From Corallococcus terminator (GTDB taxonomy: Bacteria; Myxococcota; Myxococcia; Myxococcales; Myxococcaceae): 40,072 bases of DNA. Below are positions 31,922-38,471 of this stretch, one piece after another (positions within the stretch are counted from its first letter, which is position 1; each line of letters opens with the position of its first letter). The notes below the pieces were generated by a model. It searched no databases. It had not been told where the DNA came from and saw only the letters and a program-made list of their open reading frames with translations. A program made the translations under genes and the position numbers. The stretch covers positions 1-40,072 of the forward strand of contig NZ_RAVZ01000041.1 of assembly GCF_003611635.1 (NCBI RefSeq). Reading direction: 5' to 3'.

Positions 31922-32356
31922 ATGTCGTCGGAAGACTTCCTCCGCCTGGACCTCCAGCTCTGCTTTCCGCTCTACGCGGCGTCGCGAGCGATGGTGCAGG
32001 CCTACACGCCGCTCCTGTCGAAGCTGGGGCTGACGTACCCGCAGTACCTGGTGATGCTGGTGCTGTGGGAGACGGACGGCGTGTCGGTGAAGGAGCTGGG
32101 AGAGAAGCTGTACCTGGACTCCGGCACGCTCACGCCCCTGCTCAAGCGGCTGGAGACGCTGGCGTTCGTGCGCCGGGAGCGCTCCAAGGAGGACGCGCGG
32201 TCGGTGCGCGTGTCGCTCACGCCGCAGGGGCGCGCGTTGCGCCGCAAGGCCGCGTCCATCCCGGAGGCCATCGCCTGCCGCACCGGCCTGACGATGGAAG
32301 AGCTGGCCCGGCTGCGCCGGGACGTCCAGCGCCTGTTCGAATCGGTTTCAAGGTAG
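31922..32356 (+). CDS. ohrR: OhrR: MarR-family organic hydroperoxide sensor/repressor
   Basis: A 144-residue winged-helix repressor. The peroxide-sensing cysteine is C14 in LDLQLCFPLYAASR, in the same place as C15 of Bacillus subtilis OhrR; nearby tyrosines that stabilise the reduced thiol are present (QAYTPLL, LTYPQY). The wing and recognition helix are visible in LGEKLYLDSGTLTPLLKRLE. Reduced OhrR represses; oxidation by organic hydroperoxides releases it. It is only 37 bp upstream of ohr, and the palindrome at 31889-31909 is its likely operator. No Shine-Dalgarno precedes the ATG, which fits a leaderless or nearly leaderless message. Confidence 0.95.
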   Translation: MSSEDFLRLDLQLCFPLYAASRAMVQAYTPLLSKLGLTYPQYLVMLVLWETDGVSVKELGEKLYLDSGTLTPLLKRLETLAFVRRERSKEDARSVRVSLTPQGRALRRKAASIPEAIACRTGLTMEELARLRRDVQRLFESVSR

Positions 32357-32393
32357 TTCGCCAACCCAAACGCAGCACCTGAAGGAGCACCCC

Positions 32394-32840
32394 ATGGCCC
32401 AGGTCACCATCGCCGAGAAGCTCTACTCCACCACCGCCACCACGCACGGCGGCCGCAACGGTCGGATCTCGCTCAACGACAGCCCCCTGGACAACCTGGA
32501 GCTGGCGATGCCCAAGACGCTGGGCGGCTCCGGCAAGACGACGGCCACCAACCCCGAGCAGCTCTTCGCCGCGGGCTTCTCCTCCTGCTTCGAGAGCGCC
32601 CTGCGCCTCGTGGCGGGCAAGATGGGCAAGAAGCTGGATGAGAAGGCGGGCGTGAAGGCCACGGTCACCATCGGCAAGACGCCCGAGGGCGGCTTCGGCC
32701 TCGCGGTGGAGCTCCAGGGCATCCTGCCCGGCATTCCCCACGAGGAGGCGCAGAAGCTGATGGAGGCGGCCCACCAAGTGTGCCCGTACTCCAACGCCAC
32801 GCGCGGCAACATCGAGGTCAAGGTCTCCGTCGCCGAGTAG
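32394..32840 (+). CDS. ohr: Ohr: organic hydroperoxide resistance protein
   Basis: A 148-residue OsmC/Ohr-family thiol peroxidase that reduces organic (notably fatty acid) hydroperoxides with lipoylated partners. The catalytic cysteine is in AAGFSSCFESAL and the resolving cysteine in HQVCPYSNATRGN; LGGSGKTTATNPEQLFA is the typical Ohr N-terminal region. The ATG at 32394 has the SD GAAGGAG. It forms an operon with ohrR and is followed by a hairpin terminator at 32856. Confidence 0.96.
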   Translation: MAQVTIAEKLYSTTATTHGGRNGRISLNDSPLDNLELAMPKTLGGSGKTTATNPEQLFAAGFSSCFESALRLVAGKMGKKLDEKAGVKATVTIGKTPEGGFGLAVELQGILPGIPHEEAQKLMEAAHQVCPYSNATRGNIEVKVSVAE

Positions 32841-32903: not shown

Positions 32904-34301
32904 TTACACCTTGCCTGCTTCCACCACGCGCACCTTGTCGCCGCCCTCGAAGTGCACCTCGAACACGGGCAGCCCCTTCGCCAGGTGCTGGAGCGTGTGG
33001 CCCAACTGGATGTTCGCGATGGCGTTCATCTCCGTGCGCAGCGGCTCGACGTGGTGCGGCTCCAGTGCCACCAGTTGGGGCAGGCGGCGGAAGAACTCCA
33101 CGTAGTGGTCGCGGTGTTTGGCCGCCACCTGCGGGTGCGCGACGAACACCTGCTTGGGCCCCACGGACGGAGACACGAGCGGGATGGAGGACATGTCCCA
33201 GAGCTCCTGCTCCACGTACACGGACAGCACCGCCGCCTCGTCGTGCGCGCCCGCGAGCGTGACGAACTCCAGGTCCGGCATGCCCTGCCAGCGCAGGTCG
33301 TGGTACGCGCGCAGGAACGAGCGCACCAGCTCCGGACGCACGCCGTAGTCCCCTGGCTTCGTCAGCATCAGCTTCAGGTGGCCGCAGCCCAGGTGCGCGG
33401 GCTCCAGCAGGTGCTCCATCAGCGCGGAGCGCGATTCCGGCGCCGGGTGCCCCAGCAGGGCGTGCCACCCCGCCTCGTCTTTCAGGGGCGGCAGGGCTCG
33501 GTTGGACAAGCGCGGGTCGCTGGAGATGGCGGTCACCAGCTTCTCCCACGCCTGCGTGTCGGTGTGCATGTAGAAGCGGCCGAACACCTCCAGCTCCTGG
33601 AGGAGGAGCTCCTCCACCGTGCGGAAGTCCAGTGTCTTGCCGGTGATGCGCTCCACGCTGGCGAGCGCCAGCAGGAACTCGCCCGCGTCGCCGCCCGGCG
33701 TGCCGATGACGCCCTGCTCGTCGCGGCCGTCCACGCACGAGCGCCGGCCGTTCATCAGGAGCGCGGACAGCCGCGCCCACCGCACCTGACTGGGGTCACC
33801 TACGTGCTGTTCGATGTGCGCCTTCGTCAGGGGGCCGTCCAGGGGGCCTTCCTCCACGAAGGTCGCGGTGGTGAGGCCGCGCTCGAAGATGTGCGAGTGC
33901 CGCGTGGCGGAGTAGCCCGCGTTGCGCCACGCGAGCATCCCGCCCGACAGCGCCGCCACGTACCGCATGCCCAGCGCCTGGAGGAACTGCGTCGCCAGGC
34001 CCGCGCGCCGGCCGCTGTGTGACACCAGCACCACGGGCACGTCCGGGCCCAACTGCTGGTACACCTCCGCGATGCGCTCCAGCGGCACCCAGAGGGAGCC
34101 GGGGATGTGGCCCATCAGGCCGGTGAGCTCTTCCCTCTCCCGGATGTCGATGACGCGCAGCGCGCGGCCCTGTTCGGCCACGAACTGCACCGGCACGCGC
34201 GGGGTCATCGCGCCGCTGGCTCGCAGTTCGGCCTTCCACTTCATCTGGAAGAGGACGGTGTTGATGTGAGGAGCCACTGCGTCAGGAGGCGGAGTGGTCA
34301 T
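32904..34301 (-). CDS. Inactive rhodanese domain fused to a carbonic-anhydrase-like region
   Basis: A 465-residue protein. Residues about 30-130 are a rhodanese fold (VIDIREREEL, GHIPGSLWVP, GGMLAWRNAGY), but the active loop reads SHSGRR with S94 in place of the catalytic cysteine, so sulfurtransfer is unlikely. Further on, C189-V-D191-G-R193 matches the CxDxR zinc/dyad motif of beta-carbonic anhydrases and H303-L-G-C306-G matches their HxxCG ligand pair, though separated by about 110 residues rather than the usual 50-60. The rest is unassigned. The start ATG at 34299-34301 overlaps the bestrophin stop by 20 nt. The carbonic-anhydrase assignment is inference; the rhodanese domain is certain. 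Confidence 0.8.
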   Translation of the reverse strand: MTTPPPDAVAPHINTVLFQMKWKAELRASGAMTPRVPVQFVAEQGRALRVIDIREREELTGLMGHIPGSLWVPLERIAEVYQQLGPDVPVVLVSHSGRRAGLATQFLQALGMRYVAALSGGMLAWRNAGYSATRHSHIFERGLTTATFVEEGPLDGPLTKAHIEQHVGDPSQVRWARLSALLMNGRRSCVDGRDEQGVIGTPGGDAGEFLLALASVERITGKTLDFRTVEELLLQELEVFGRFYMHTDTQAWEKLVTAISSDPRLSNRALPPLKDEAGWHALLGHPAPESRSALMEHLLEPAHLGCGHLKLMLTKPGDYGVRPELVRSFLRAYHDLRWQGMPDLEFVTLAGAHDEAAVLSVYVEQELWDMSSIPLVSPSVGPKQVFVAHPQVAAKHRDHYVEFFRRLPQLVALEPHHVEPLRTEMNAIANIQLGHTLQHLAKGLPVFEVHFEGGDKVRVVEAGKV

Positions 34302-35175
34302 GGGGAGGCGTGCCAGGCGCTGGCAGGAAGGCCAGCAGGTTGTTCTGGATGTTCTCGCAGATGGCGTCGAGCGGCAGGTCGTTGTCGTCGGTGCCGAAGG
34401 GGTCCTCGATTTCGACGCCGATCTCCTCGATGCCGAAGAAGACATACGTGACGACGAAGGTGGCGGGCACCGTCACCCACCCGAAGGTGTCCACCAGCGA
34501 AAAGGGCAGGGTGGCGCAGTAGAGGATGAGGGCGCGGCGCAGGTGCACCATGTACGCGAAGGGCATGGGCGTGCGGTGGATGCGCTCGCAACCACCCAGG
34601 TAGTCGATGAGCAACTGCACGTTCTGGTCGAGCTGCATCTGGACGTACTCCGGATACAGCCCCGAGCGGCGGCCTTCGTCCAGCACGGCCGTCATCCGCC
34701 GCGCCACGCTGAGCGGGACATGCTGCGCGCTCAACACTTCCTGCACGAAGGCCTGGGGCAACTCCGCCACCTTGGGGCCGAGCTGACGCTGGCCGCGCAG
34801 CCACGCGGCGGCGGCGAAGGGGAACGCGGCCGTCCAGCGCACCAGCGGGGCGTACAGGGGCGTGCGGCCCAGGAACACCTCCGACGCGCGTGCCAGGTTG
34901 CGCGTCTCGTTGACGATGCCGCCCCACAGCTTGCGGCCCTCCCAGAAGCGGTCATAGGAGGCGTTGGTGCGGAACACGAGCAGCAGGCTCAAGCTCATGC
35001 CGGCCAGCGTGTGCACCGTGAGGGGCACGCCCACGTGGGTCACGTGCAGCGAGAAGGCCACCACGCCCGCGGACCAGAGGACGAACAACAACACACGGCC
35101 GACGATCTGCTTCACCATCGAACCACGCAGGTAGTGGAAGTAGCTCCACCATCGATGCGGATCATACTCAACCAT
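34282..35175 (-). CDS. Bestrophin-family anion channel
   Basis: A 297-residue membrane protein of the bacterial bestrophin (YneE/KpBest) type. There are four main hydrophobic regions; the signature LLLVFRTNASYDRFWEGRKLWG (two adjacent parts) lines the pore side of helix 2, and the C-terminus carries IEDPFGTDDNDLPLD, the conserved acidic/clamp region. Bestrophins are pentameric channels for chloride, bicarbonate or, in some bacteria, cations. The ATG at 35173-35175 has GGGAGG upstream; an earlier ATG (35208) is less likely. The downstream gene overlaps it by 20 nt, implying functional coupling with the rhodanese/carbonic-anhydrase-like protein. Confidence 0.93.
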   Translation of the reverse strand: MVEYDPHRWWSYFHYLRGSMVKQIVGRVLLFVLWSAGVVAFSLHVTHVGVPLTVHTLAGMSLSLLLVFRTNASYDRFWEGRKLWGGIVNETRNLARASEVFLGRTPLYAPLVRWTAAFPFAAAAWLRGQRQLGPKVAELPQAFVQEVLSAQHVPLSVARRMTAVLDEGRRSGLYPEYVQMQLDQNVQLLIDYLGGCERIHRTPMPFAYMVHLRRALILYCATLPFSLVDTFGWVTVPATFVVTYVFFGIEEIGVEIEDPFGTDDNDLPLDAICENIQNNLLAFLPAPGTPPHDHSAS

Positions 35176-35339
35176 GTGTCTTGAAGCCTCCCGTTGGGGG
35201 GCGCGCATGCTAACCGCACCGCGCCGCGTCGCGAGGCCTGCTTTTGCAGGATTGCGGATGCCCGACGCTCCGGGCCGTGGCCTGCCCGACAGCCCTTCGG
35301 CTAAGGAGGAGGGAGGCCCGCTCCCAAGGAGGCGCCCCC

Positions 35340-37178
35340 ATGCGCCGTCACGTCACGCTCCCGCTGATGGTCCTCCTCGCCGCACCGCTGGCCGGGTGCA
35401 GCTTCCTGCGCACGGACGTCCTGCTGGACACCCTGAACGCGCCGGAGTCATCCAAGCCCCAGGACGCGCCGCCCCGGGTCCCGGCGGTGGAGCGCGTGGC
35501 GGGGCTCACGCGCGCGCAGCTCATGGATTCGTATGTGGACGCCGAGCGCGCGGGCGGGTGGATGGACGCGCTGGGGGCGTCGCCGGAGGCCGTACTGGAC
35601 ATGACGGCGTGTCTGCTCCAGCGCGCGGGGGCCGATACGGCGGCCTGTTATGAGAACGACGCGCGCACGGGCTACATCGACCGGACGGTGAAGGCGTCGG
35701 CGTGGGGCATTCCGCTGCCCGCGCAGTCGCTCTCCGTGGCGACGCCGTCGGAGGCGGAGGTGGACGCGGAGCGCTTCCTCGCGAACACGCTGGGGCTCGC
35801 GCCGTCGCTCGCGGCGTTGCAGCAGTCGCTGGAGGTGCCGCTGACGCGCGAGGCGCTGGCGCAGGGCATCCGGGAGGGCGCGGCGTCCGCGGCCGGCTAC
35901 GTGCGGGCGCGCACGTGGCGCCGGGACCTGAAGCGGCCCACCAACGCGGTGGTGCTGAGCGGCGGCGGGGCCAACGGCGCGTTCAGCGCAGGGGCCATCT
36001 GGCGGCTCTTGGGCATCCTGGAGCAGTGCCGGGGCAAGCCCGCGCCGGAGGGGTGCGGGGATGCGCGCATCGACCTGGCGGCGGGGACGAGCACCGGGGC
36101 GCTCATCAGCACGCTGGTGGACCTGTTCCACACGCCGGGGCAGGAGGCGAAGGCGCGCCAGTTGCTGCTGGGCAACTACACGTGCACGGTGGAGTCGGAC
36201 CTGTACTGCGTGAACTCCACGTGGTTGTGGAACCTGGCGGACGACACGCGGGGGCTGGTTCAGTTCGACGGCGTGTATTCGAAGCTGGATGCGTTCATCC
36301 AGCCGGCCATGCTCCACAACGGCACGGAGCTGGTGTCGGTGTCGGTGGACTTCCAGACGGGGGATGTCTTCGGCGTGAGCGACCAGGATCCGGCGGACTT
36401 CAAGGCCGGGGGGACGGACGCGGAGCGCAAGCGGGGGATGACGCGGGCCATCGTGGCGTCCATCGTGGAGCCGGTGCTGTCGGATCCGGTGAAGGTGCTG
36501 CCGTCGGCCTCCGGGAACCGGAATGGGACGTACTACGACGGCGGGGTGCGCTCCGGGCTGCCGCTGCTCCAGGCGGTGCAGCGCGGGGCGGAGCGGGTGC
36601 TGGTGATTTCGACGGGCGGGGTGAACCCGAGTCCGGAGAAGGATCCGAAGAACGCGATGAGCGTGCTCATGCGCACCATCGACCTGTTCGTCGCGCAGCC
36701 GCGCGTGGGCGAGGTGCAGCAGGCGGAGCTGCTCGCGGTGACGCGCCGGTTGGGCGAGTACAACGTCTGCACGCTGAGGGGCGCGAGCGAGGACTTCTGC
36801 CGCCGCAAGGGCACGGGCTTCCAGGCGCCGGGGTTGGTGGCGCCGGCGGCGGGGCAGGCGGTGTGGATGGGCTCGGCGCGCTTCGACCAGGTGGCGACGA
36901 GCTGGCGCACGGCCTGGATGTTCAAGCCGGAGACGGGGCTGGCGACGGCGAGCGGCTATTCGTTCACGCCGGAGGTGATGCAGCCGCTCTTCGTGGCCGG
37001 GGTGGAGTCGCTCCAGAAGCGGTGCACGGAGGTGCTGGGCCTCTTCGACATCCAGGGCACGCTGGCGGCCCGGGAGTGCGCGCGCCAGTGGGTGGAGGTG
37101 TCGGACGAGGCGCGCGAGGCGCTCCCGTCCGTGGCGCAGTGCCGCAAGGACAAGCCGGAGCGCCGCACGTGTGACTGA
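35340..37178 (+). CDS. Patatin-like phospholipase lipoprotein
   Basis: A 612-residue predicted lipid-anchored hydrolase. The signal peptide ends in lipobox LAGC (C20). The patatin domain begins near residue 202: oxyanion loop SGGGANGAFSAG (207-218), nucleophile S251 in GTSTG, and the dyad aspartate D400 in YYDGGVRSG. Patatins hydrolyse acyl esters of phospholipids. Residues 40-195 are an additional N-terminal helical region without family. The ATG at 35340 follows AAGGAGG. It is likely located in the periplasm or outer membrane, where it could remodel lipids. It stands alone, convergent to the lipoprotein gene at 37191. Confidence 0.92.
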   Translation: MRRHVTLPLMVLLAAPLAGCSFLRTDVLLDTLNAPESSKPQDAPPRVPAVERVAGLTRAQLMDSYVDAERAGGWMDALGASPEAVLDMTACLLQRAGADTAACYENDARTGYIDRTVKASAWGIPLPAQSLSVATPSEAEVDAERFLANTLGLAPSLAALQQSLEVPLTREALAQGIREGAASAAGYVRARTWRRDLKRPTNAVVLSGGGANGAFSAGAIWRLLGILEQCRGKPAPEGCGDARIDLAAGTSTGALISTLVDLFHTPGQEAKARQLLLGNYTCTVESDLYCVNSTWLWNLADDTRGLVQFDGVYSKLDAFIQPAMLHNGTELVSVSVDFQTGDVFGVSDQDPADFKAGGTDAERKRGMTRAIVASIVEPVLSDPVKVLPSASGNRNGTYYDGGVRSGLPLLQAVQRGAERVLVISTGGVNPSPEKDPKNAMSVLMRTIDLFVAQPRVGEVQQAELLAVTRRLGEYNVCTLRGASEDFCRRKGTGFQAPGLVAPAAGQAVWMGSARFDQVATSWRTAWMFKPETGLATASGYSFTPEVMQPLFVAGVESLQKRCTEVLGLFDIQGTLAARECARQWVEVSDEAREALPSVAQCRKDKPERRTCD

Positions 37179-37190
37179 GGGGCGCGGGGG

Positions 37191-38471
37191 CTACTTCCCG
37201 CCGTCCTTCACCCAGGCACCCCAGCCCGCGAGCGCGCCGCCGTCCTCGGCGACGCGCTTGCCCTTGAGCGGAGCGCGGAAGATGGCGTCCGACAGGGTGC
37301 CGAAGCGGGGCTCGTCCGCGAGTCCGTGGAGCGCGGCGCCCCACGGGTCCGCGGCGTAGGAGGCGACCTGCACGCGGCGCTCGGCGCCTTCGCCCAGCGG
37401 CGTTTCGAAGACGATGGCGGGGATGGGTCGCTGGGCGACGGTGATTGTCTCCCGGCGCGAGGTGGCGGTGCCGGCGGTGACGGGCGGCCACTGCTGCGGC
37501 AGGCTGACGGCTTCGCTGACGAGCGCGAGGAGGGCCTCTTCCACGGGCGTGGCGTCGGCCTCCTGGAAGTCCGCGCACGGCGCGTCGCCGGTGGGGCCGG
37601 TCAGGTCCTTGCGCAAGAGGAAGCCGCGTTCAGCGCCCAGGCAGACGCGGCGCACGGAGGACGTGCCGGAGATGTCCTGGCGCACGTCGTACCAGGTGCC
37701 CGGGCCCCAGGGCTGCTCCATGACGGGGAGGGTGCCTGCGGCGTCGGTGCCCTGGCGGAAGGACACGAGCGTGAGCTGCTGGCTGCCGCTGGCGCCGAAG
37801 CCGGAGAGGGTGGTGCTGGCGTCGAGCAGGCCGTGGGTGAGGTACAGCGGTCCGGGCTCCGAGGCATACAGGCGGTTCTGGAGGGGACCGTCGCTGGGGC
37901 GGCTGTCGTGCAGGTAGCGCTGCGCGTCCCAGGTGCGGCCGGCGGCGGTGGTCTGTTCGGTGGAGCGCTGGCCGCGGTGTTCGGCCTTCCAGGCCTGCGT
38001 CTCTTCCATGCGCATGGGCAGCACGCGGCGCTGGGAGAGGCGCGGGTGGGCGAGCGGCTTGCCCTGATCATCGGTGAAGGTGACGGTGAGCCACGCCCAC
38101 GGAGCCTGCACGGCGACGACCTCCAGGGCGACGTGGCCGGCCACGCCGGTGCCCGCGTCGGGGGGGCCGGCGACGCGCTGGCCGCCCGGGCGGCCCCGGT
38201 GCGCGGAGAAGGCGTACTCCACGCGGTCGCCGACGCGGGCGCGCTGCCACGGTGAGGCGGTGGCGGGGGTGGAGGTGTCGCCGGCATCTGGAATGACGGA
38301 AGCGTCGGGCGTGGTGGAGGCGGTGGTGTCGGGTTGCGGGATGGAAGAGGTGCCATCCGCGGGCGGCGTGGCGCGGGGCTTCACGCTTTCGCAGCCGGAG
38401 GCCGCGCCCAGGGCGAGCACGGCGCACAGCAGGAGGTGCCGGGAGGAGGAACGGGGGAGGGTGCTTCGCAT
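37191..38471 (-). CDS. Lipoprotein of unknown function
   Basis: A 426-residue exported protein. The signal peptide (LLLCAVLALGAASGC) ends in the lipobox AASGC. A Thr/Pro/Asp-rich linker (about 35-75) follows, and then one or two beta-rich domains with many aromatic and charged residues (ARVGDRVEYAFSAHRG; WLTVTFTDDQGKPL; GTWYDVRQDISGTSSV). I do not recognise a catalytic motif; it may belong to one of the DUF families found only in myxobacteria (DUF6068 comes to mind, unverified). It is convergent with the patatin gene, 12 bp between stops. Confidence 0.78.
   Translation of the reverse strand: MRSTLPRSSSRHLLLCAVLALGAASGCESVKPRATPPADGTSSIPQPDTTASTTPDASVIPDAGDTSTPATASPWQRARVGDRVEYAFSAHRGRPGGQRVAGPPDAGTGVAGHVALEVVAVQAPWAWLTVTFTDDQGKPLAHPRLSQRRVLPMRMEETQAWKAEHRGQRSTEQTTAAGRTWDAQRYLHDSRPSDGPLQNRLYASEPGPLYLTHGLLDASTTLSGFGASGSQQLTLVSFRQGTDAAGTLPVMEQPWGPGTWYDVRQDISGTSSVRRVCLGAERGFLLRKDLTGPTGDAPCADFQEADATPVEEALLALVSEAVSLPQQWPPVTAGTATSRRETITVAQRPIPAIVFETPLGEGAERRVQVASYAADPWGAALHGLADEPRFGTLSDAIFRAPLKGKRVAEDGGALAGWGAWVKDGGK

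Follow-up and report, generated by a model that had tools for sequence, protein, structure and literature searches.

We examined a minus-strand gene pair of the soil myxobacterium Corallococcus terminator, in which a bestrophin channel gene overlaps the gene for a fusion of a rhodanese domain and a C-terminal domain (CTD). The pair lies in a stretch of 40,072 bases (here, "the window"), which is one contig of a 10.35-Mb genome. The predicted fold of the CTD matches that of CDCA1, the cadmium (zeta) carbonic anhydrase (CA) of the diatom Thalassiosira weissflogii; its candidate catalytic residues are conserved across a mainly myxobacterial family, and its gene is recurrently found beside bestrophin genes. 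The pair probably handles CO2 and bicarbonate. Its features are as follows.

34282-35175, minus strand: bacterial bestrophin, 297 aa (PF25539 match, E 1e-91)
32904-34301, minus strand: rhodanese and zeta-CA-like fusion protein, 465 aa from the ATG at 34301
34282-34301, minus strand: 20-nt overlap between the bestrophin end and the fusion start (fusion ATG at 34301)
33921-34163, minus strand: rhodanese domain, residues 47-127 (PF00581, E 4.2e-13)
32907-33884, minus strand: CTD, zeta-CA-like, residues 140-465 (326 aa; predicted fold, pLDDT 91.2)
33723-33737, minus strand: CVDGR, residues 189-193, with C189 a candidate ligand and D191-R193 the candidate dyad
33564-33566, minus strand: H246 in FxxHxD, proposed second metal ligand
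33378-33389, minus strand: GCGH, residues 305-308, with C306 the proposed third ligand

The 20-nt overlap is as the original prediction had described it. By eye, no Shine-Dalgarno-like sequence precedes the fusion ATG, and an overlap without such a stretch is consistent with translational coupling. The identical 20-nt overlap occurs in Corallococcus praedator (L025/L045; gene start 3967, bestrophin stop 3986). The predicted replacement of the catalytic Cys in the rhodanese loop is likewise present: Ser94, in VSHSGRR, occupies that position. The two CA-like motifs of the prediction, CxDxR and HxxCG, can be read in the protein as CVDGRDE at residue 189 and HLGCG at residue 303, but H303 is not a ligand that the whole family shares. 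Beyond PF00581, the fusion protein has no other Pfam or NCBIfam match above cut-off.

The CTD family and its conserved residues

A search with residues 140 to 465 gave matches in 20 of 195 Myxococcota genomes, its own genome included, and a search of genome contigs with alignment A2 identified 63 CTD loci; the two sets overlap in genomes and are not summed. Alignment A3 has 60 rows, comprising the window and 59 of the 63 loci, with L045 and L055 left out as near-copies, L079 for a frame break, and L106 because it is partial. It matched 4 of 195 genomes in the class of Roseithermus, two of which were already known carriers, and 1 of 249 genomes in the phylum of a Gemmatimonadetes contig, that one already known. 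No CTD match was found on plasmids. Judged by sequence, the CTD is a coherent family, mainly of Myxococcota, with distant members in Rhodothermia and Gemmatimonadota. Its gene is sporadic, occurring in 5 of the 16 genomes of the window's genus, and the window CTD is 93% identical to those of a Myxococcaceae metagenome-assembled genome and of C. praedator.

C189, D191, R193, H246, D248, G305, G307, H308, H353, and H389 are present in all 60 rows of A3. C306 is kept in 59, the exception being a broken gene in L096 (5419-6924, on the same contig as L041), where the rhodanese and CTD lie in separate frames, C306 is replaced by Gly, and a bestrophin gene is still found upstream. Because position 303 is His in 41 rows and varies among N, A, S, C, and T in the remaining 19, the invariant H246 is the better third ligand. 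C189 and H246 are 57 residues apart in 59 of the 60 rows, and the spacing from H246 to C306 ranges from 48 to 89, at 59 or 60 in 48 rows.

The predicted CTD fold resembles a diatom carbonic anhydrase

An AlphaFold2 model of the CTD, computed from the family alignment, scored a pLDDT of 91.2 and a pTM of 0.89. When the top 1,000 Foldseek candidates for this model were realigned with VIA-align, the five CDCA1 entries (3bob, 3boh, 3boj, 3uk8, and 7bez) came first, with Z scores of 10.6 to 11.3 over 180 to 183 residues, root mean square deviations of 3.5 to 3.7, and 18 to 21% identity over the aligned residues. Three entries of CsoSCA followed at Z 3.2 to 3.7, and chains other than CAs all scored 2.9 or less. 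The LCIB and DabA folds were absent from the VIA-align rows, an absence that excludes neither, and a library of viral structures gave no significant match to the CTD.

As in CDCA1, the model has two lobes within one chain, and the sequence holds two Cys, an Asp/Arg pair, and a putative ligand His. From conservation and topology, we infer that C189, H246, and C306 are the candidate metal trio of a domain that would bind metal and be active. Both proteins have a Gly-Cys at the second Cys, and we take the Cys-x-Asp-x-Arg dyad to be present in CDCA1, as it is in the CTD. By an estimate from the aligned ranges, with a CDCA1 numbering that is partly our assumption, the CTD is longer by about 50 residues between the His and the second Cys and by about 38 beyond that Cys. 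The CTD also differs from CDCA1 in showing no detectable sequence similarity to it, in being a single domain rather than three repeats, in its bacterial origin, and in its fusion to a rhodanese. According to excerpts of a review, a CDCA1 repeat is presumed to imitate a beta-CA dimer, its metal being held by two Cys and one His, and Gly316 and Gly324 (mutants G316A/G324A) flank the stretch between two metal residues (PMC4413181). That flanking places CDCA1 ligands at 315 and 325, with a Gly directly before the second; as far as those excerpts go, the invariant G305 before C306 agrees with this arrangement.

Sequence comparison gave no such match. Among 60 CTD members, none matched PF18484 (zeta-CA), PF00484 (beta-CA), PF18599 (LCIB/theta-CA), or PF10070 (DabA) at E ≤ 1, nor did eight spliced cores match PF18484 at E ≤ 10. 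Against Pfam as a whole, none of the 60 reached E ≤ 0.001, the best score being to DUF3040 in one member (E 0.0056), which we take as chance. CTD profiles found no relevant PDB chain by sequence, and the core without the His-Cys insertion (A4) found no relevant PDB or Pfam match. The hhalign probability was 0.2% or less against 25 myxobacterial beta-CAs (25 of 28 loci passed the motif filter) and 0.1% or less against 8 DabA sequences (4 of 10 DabA loci were missed by the motif filter and dropped). At the genome level, PF18484 was found in none of 189 Myxococcota genomes, none of the 5 genomes of the distant loci, and none of 198 genomes of the Roseithermus phylum, with the controls also silent in each case. 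Since a PF18484 match is lacking, we file the CTD as zeta-CA-like only and not as a zeta-CA.

Other CA families were considered and, on sequence grounds, rejected. A canonical beta-CA is contradicted by the PF00484 and hhalign results and by the variability of H303. Our first guess had been LCIB/theta-CA, for which PF18599 was found neither in the 60 members nor in 193 Myxococcota genomes, although the control for the latter search was also silent, so that it is no proof of absence. A relation to DabA had no profile signal in hhalign.

The original prediction had read the CTD as a divergent beta-CA, to be compared with beta-CA and CsoSCA folds. Much of this holds: the fold is CA-like, the Cys/His/Cys and Asp-Arg residues are there, C189, D191, R193, and C306 are conserved among homologues, and the family is divergent enough to have no significant sequence match to known CA families. 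The assignment to the beta class and the role given to H303 had to be abandoned, and CsoSCA (best Z 3.7) ranks behind zeta-class CDCA1. Judging from the model, the CTD resembles a zeta-CA and probably works like one.

Linkage of the CTD gene to bestrophins and other carriers

A bestrophin gene lies directly beside the CTD gene in 17 of the 63 loci and in several lineages, so the linkage extends beyond one genome, as the original prediction had needed. The five loci that end at the gene (L047, L064, L067, L086, and L106) are kept in this count and were left out of the tree linkage count. The bestrophin gene may be upstream on the same strand, convergent and downstream (L050, L051, L059, and L070), or co-directional and downstream (L081). 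Linkage needs 8 changes on the CTD tree, which was built by a quick method and has weak support at 20 of 59 inner branches. Bestrophins are present in 87 of 189 genomes, with 1 to 7 per bearing genome among the matches listed and 4 in the window's genome. When 18 linked bestrophins (the window's included) were set against 37 unlinked ones, a single linked clade was rejected (approximately unbiased test, p-AU 7.6e-43), and the linked Corallococcus bestrophins fall in one subfamily and the other 14 in another. Thus, either the association has at least two origins or one bestrophin partner replaced another.

A canonical beta-CA was found in the same position in one Myxococcota genome that is not among the CTD-matching genomes (G013). 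There, a beta-CA gene shares 4 nt (ATGA; L184 4932-6424, G013:C84) with the end of a bestrophin gene whose product is 50.5% identical to the window's bestrophin, and the beta-CA keeps GCSDSR and HYGCGG. This single case is the only bestrophin/beta-CA pair within 5 kb that we saw, by eye, among the matches listed.

CTD genes also adjoin other carriers. L049 (1-6122) encodes, on one strand, DabA (PF10070, E 4e-226; with Cys-Ile-Asp-x-Arg), a DabB-like antiporter subunit, and then the fusion protein, which starts (ATG) 63 nt beyond the DabB-like frame; L048 (295-6912), its very close sister, has the same gene clusters. These two loci have a DAB-type carbon pump alongside a second CA-like protein. 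DabA was not found in the window's genome and occurs in two genomes of the window's genus (G075 and G078), both without the fusion gene. In Rhodothermia, a CTD gene without a rhodanese sits between two SulP transporter frames and overlaps both (L102, 4221-8663), and in L150 (1-3883) the CTD gene is flanked to either side by SulP parts, and thioredoxin and HiPIP genes intervene. The SulPs of L102 and L099 fall well short of the BicA cut-off and are thus not established as bicarbonate transporters. Seven Nannocystis loci (L052, L053, L055 to L058, and L079) share a gene directly upstream of the fusion gene, and the one scanned (L056) encodes an amino-acid permease. At many other loci the neighbors are unrecognizable or unrelated (kinase, TPR, PEGA, ketoacyl synthase, HipA, and more), and many flanking open reading frames at CTD loci have no Pfam match and may be spurious.

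In the window itself, the plus strand at 31922-32840 carries a MarR-type regulator followed by an OsmC-family gene, a pair that we presume to resemble Ohr/OhrR. A patatin gene (35244-37178) adjoins a DUF6068 gene (37191-38471) in an order kept across Corallococcus, and several Corallococcus loci have a second, weaker DUF6068 match.

The rhodanese domain has mostly lost its catalytic cysteine

In a full-length model, the rhodanese domain of the window protein is closest to that of BpPRF (5ve3 to 5ve5; Z 16.1 to 16.3, 34 to 35% identity). Unlike BpPRF, the fusion protein has no dioxygenase domain, and its CA-like domain is C-terminal; Ser94 resembles the inactivating C314S mutant of BpPRF. The domain therefore has the family signature and fold of a rhodanese, without the catalytic Cys of an active sulfurtransferase. 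Across the 63 loci, the Cys position holds Ser in 39, Cys in 16, and Asp in 1, and is absent or not covered in 7; the Cys/Ser state changes 5 times on the CTD tree (by the same quick method). Basal rows that bear a rhodanese have Cys, except for Asp in L084. Ser predominates in the large clade to which the window protein belongs, where L064, L072, L081, L082, L087, L089, L090, and L095 carry Cys. Hence, the Ser-bearing fusion of the original prediction stands for the window protein, but most basal members have either a rhodanese with Cys or a CTD with no fused rhodanese.

Several basal members (L091, L093, L094, L098, L099, L100, and L103), as well as L106, have the Cys loop CRSGRRS. MBL-rhodanese proteins are encoded near L098, L099, and L102, TauE/SafE in L149, DUF6691 (which we take to be YeeE-like) in L097 and L098, a separate rhodanese in L105, and SulP near the basal loci L091, L099, L102, and L150. 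Most simply, the ancestral rhodanese would have been active in a sulfur context, and its Cys would have disappeared while the protein gained other partners, with some reversals.

The bestrophin neck

The solved chains closest to the window bestrophin are entries of KpBest (E 6e-42), a member of its sequence family, followed by the plant-type 7ek1 (E 4e-26). Alignment with KpBest places the neck at M60, L64, and F68 (34972-34998). The window bestrophin differs from KpBest in this neck (M-L-F versus I-I-F) and in being coupled to an enzyme gene. The first neck residue is A, G, V, or T in all 14 linked bestrophins outside Corallococcus and I or M in the linked Corallococcus ones; in the 37 unlinked bestrophins, a set dominated by close orthologues, it is I in 34, V in 2, and P in 1. 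The A, G, V, or T of the former group is possibly a sign of a wider neck. Excerpts of a study of selectivity describe KpBest as a Na+ channel with an IIF neck and report that Phe at the middle neck position favors Cl- (PMC8496536). Bicarbonate conduction by the window bestrophin is a conjecture. A 2016 abstract stated that what bestrophins do physiologically was not precisely known (PMC4893618).

Proposed function of the gene pair

We lean, by a little, toward the explanation that the CTD is a zeta-like enzyme acting on CO2 and bicarbonate beside the channel, joined to a dead rhodanese and serving release or buffering. The CTD would be a metal-dependent, CA-type enzyme with the two-lobe zeta-CA fold, in which one chain mimics a beta-CA dimer, C189, H246, and C306 act as ligands, and D191-R193 forms the dyad. 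The rhodanese, whose catalytic Cys is lost in most lineages, is probably a docking or sensing domain. The fusion protein, presumably made by translational coupling, would work on or close to the cytoplasmic face of the channel, perhaps touching it, and would interconvert CO2 and HCO3- beside the bestrophin, with bicarbonate as the presumed ion. The channel is passive, and an anion is not concentrated against an inside-negative potential; bicarbonate release or buffering is therefore likelier than concentration. The likeliest net use in a heterotroph would be the release of respiratory CO2 as bicarbonate, presumably outward through the channel, or pH/CO2 buffering.

Held more tentatively is a wider proposal, that the CTD represents an undescribed bacterial CA class, a structural relative of the diatom cadmium enzyme that was repeatedly drawn into partnership with membrane proteins that probably carry inorganic carbon (two bestrophin subfamilies, DabAB, and perhaps SulP) and that here forms a channel-enzyme unit with a bestrophin.

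Several observations weigh against the favored explanation. Neither sequences nor profiles tie the CTD significantly to any CA family, and the zeta match stems from the VIA-align reexamination of Foldseek candidates; Foldseek itself gave a best E of 0.63 against the PDB, with pea beta-CA at rank 20 (E 2.4). The candidate His-Cys spacing is mostly 59 to 60, versus the approximately 10 that the excerpted review implies for CDCA1. The window's genome already encodes four beta-CAs, and the MLF neck lacks the middle Phe, as does that of KpBest, the closest solved bestrophin and a Na+ channel. Forty-six of the 63 loci have no adjacent bestrophin (5 of the 63 being cut off at the gene). In four Corallococcus loci without the fusion gene (L185 to L188), the order HipA_2, MarR, OsmC, bestrophin, patatin, DUF6068 is unchanged; because the bestrophin is retained in these four inspected genomes, the channel does not require the fusion protein. 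Lastly, sulfur genes lie near several basal lineages.

That last observation belongs to the main rival, which we consider unlikely: the CTD could be a sulfur enzyme on a CA-type fold, such as a carbonyl sulfide (COS) or carbon disulfide (CS2) hydrolase, that feeds or once fed a rhodanese/persulfide pathway. COS hydrolase converts COS and water to H2S and CO2, and COS and CS2 hydrolases of beta-CA ancestry exist. The fused rhodanese is related to that of BpPRF, a persulfide dioxygenase-rhodanese (Z 16), several basal members keep the CRSGRRS loop or have no fused rhodanese, and basal loci lie near MBL-rhodanese, TauE/SafE, DUF6691, free rhodanese, and SulP genes. However, the rhodanese Cys is mostly Ser in the window's large clade (39 of 63 loci overall), the known neighbors in that clade are bestrophin, DabAB, or a permease, and a beta-CA takes the same position beside a related bestrophin in G013. 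SulP transporters, moreover, also pair with CAs.

We give less credence to a noncatalytic role, in which the CTD would bind metal and CO2/HCO3- as a sensor or regulator of bestrophin gating and the dead rhodanese would serve as an adaptor. Such a role would suit the loss of the rhodanese Cys in most of the large clade, the variety of partners (channel, DabAB, amino-acid permease, and SulP), and a genome that already has four beta-CAs. Catalysis better fits the complete conservation of the candidate ligands (C306 in 59 of 60 rows) and of the Asp-Arg dyad, and the equivalent beta-CA in G013 keeps GCSDSR and HYGCGG.

It is improbable that the bestrophin is an incidental neighbor, functionally unconnected with the fusion protein. 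No fusion gene was found in 11 of the 16 genomes of the genus, with the bestrophin staying in the four inspected, and many loci have other neighbors; nevertheless, linkage in 17 of 63 loci, with few bestrophins per genome, three arrangements, and two bestrophin subfamilies, compares with a chance of about 0.2% per locus by our own arithmetic (4 genes, a 4-kb reach, and 10 Mb). An ordinary divergent beta-CA that uses C189, H303, and C306 is the least credible alternative, because, although the motif letters are in the window protein and CsoSCA, itself a divergent beta-CA, ranks next by fold (Z 3.7), His occupies position 303 in 41 of 60 rows, PF00484 is absent from the 60 members, hhalign gives 0.2% or less, and the zeta fold scores far higher.

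The favored pairing of a zeta-like enzyme with a bestrophin has partial parallels. Excerpts on DabA describe two beta-CA-like domains in one protein and, as in the CTD, a site of Cys-x-Asp-x-Arg, His, and Cys and a membrane partner (PMC13144422); the CTD differs in having no PF10070 or profile relation to DabA and, outside the DabA/DabB-like loci L048 and L049, in its bestrophin partner. The carbon-concentrating mechanism of Chlamydomonas, in the excerpted account, involves bestrophin-like BST1-3 with carbonic anhydrases and LCIB (PMC6708349), whereas the window has a different CA class in a bacterial gene pair of a nonphotosynthetic heterotroph.

In the excerpts available, zeta-CAs are described as occurring only in diatom species (PMC4413181) and are placed in diatoms in a review table (PMC7215798), and bacteria are credited with alpha-, beta-, gamma-, and iota-CAs (PMC8425729). 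Among the matches listed in a search of mostly open-access literature, no title concerned a bacterial zeta-CA or a bestrophin/CTD pairing. The CTD family may point to a bacterial origin for a fold that has been described in diatoms alone. If our reading is true, the zeta class would gain an evolutionary context from a family of bacteria that shares its fold, the zeta-like CTD would offer a soluble bacterial protein for studies of Zn/Cd exchange, and its pairing would suggest both a partner and a function for the bestrophins of bacteria.

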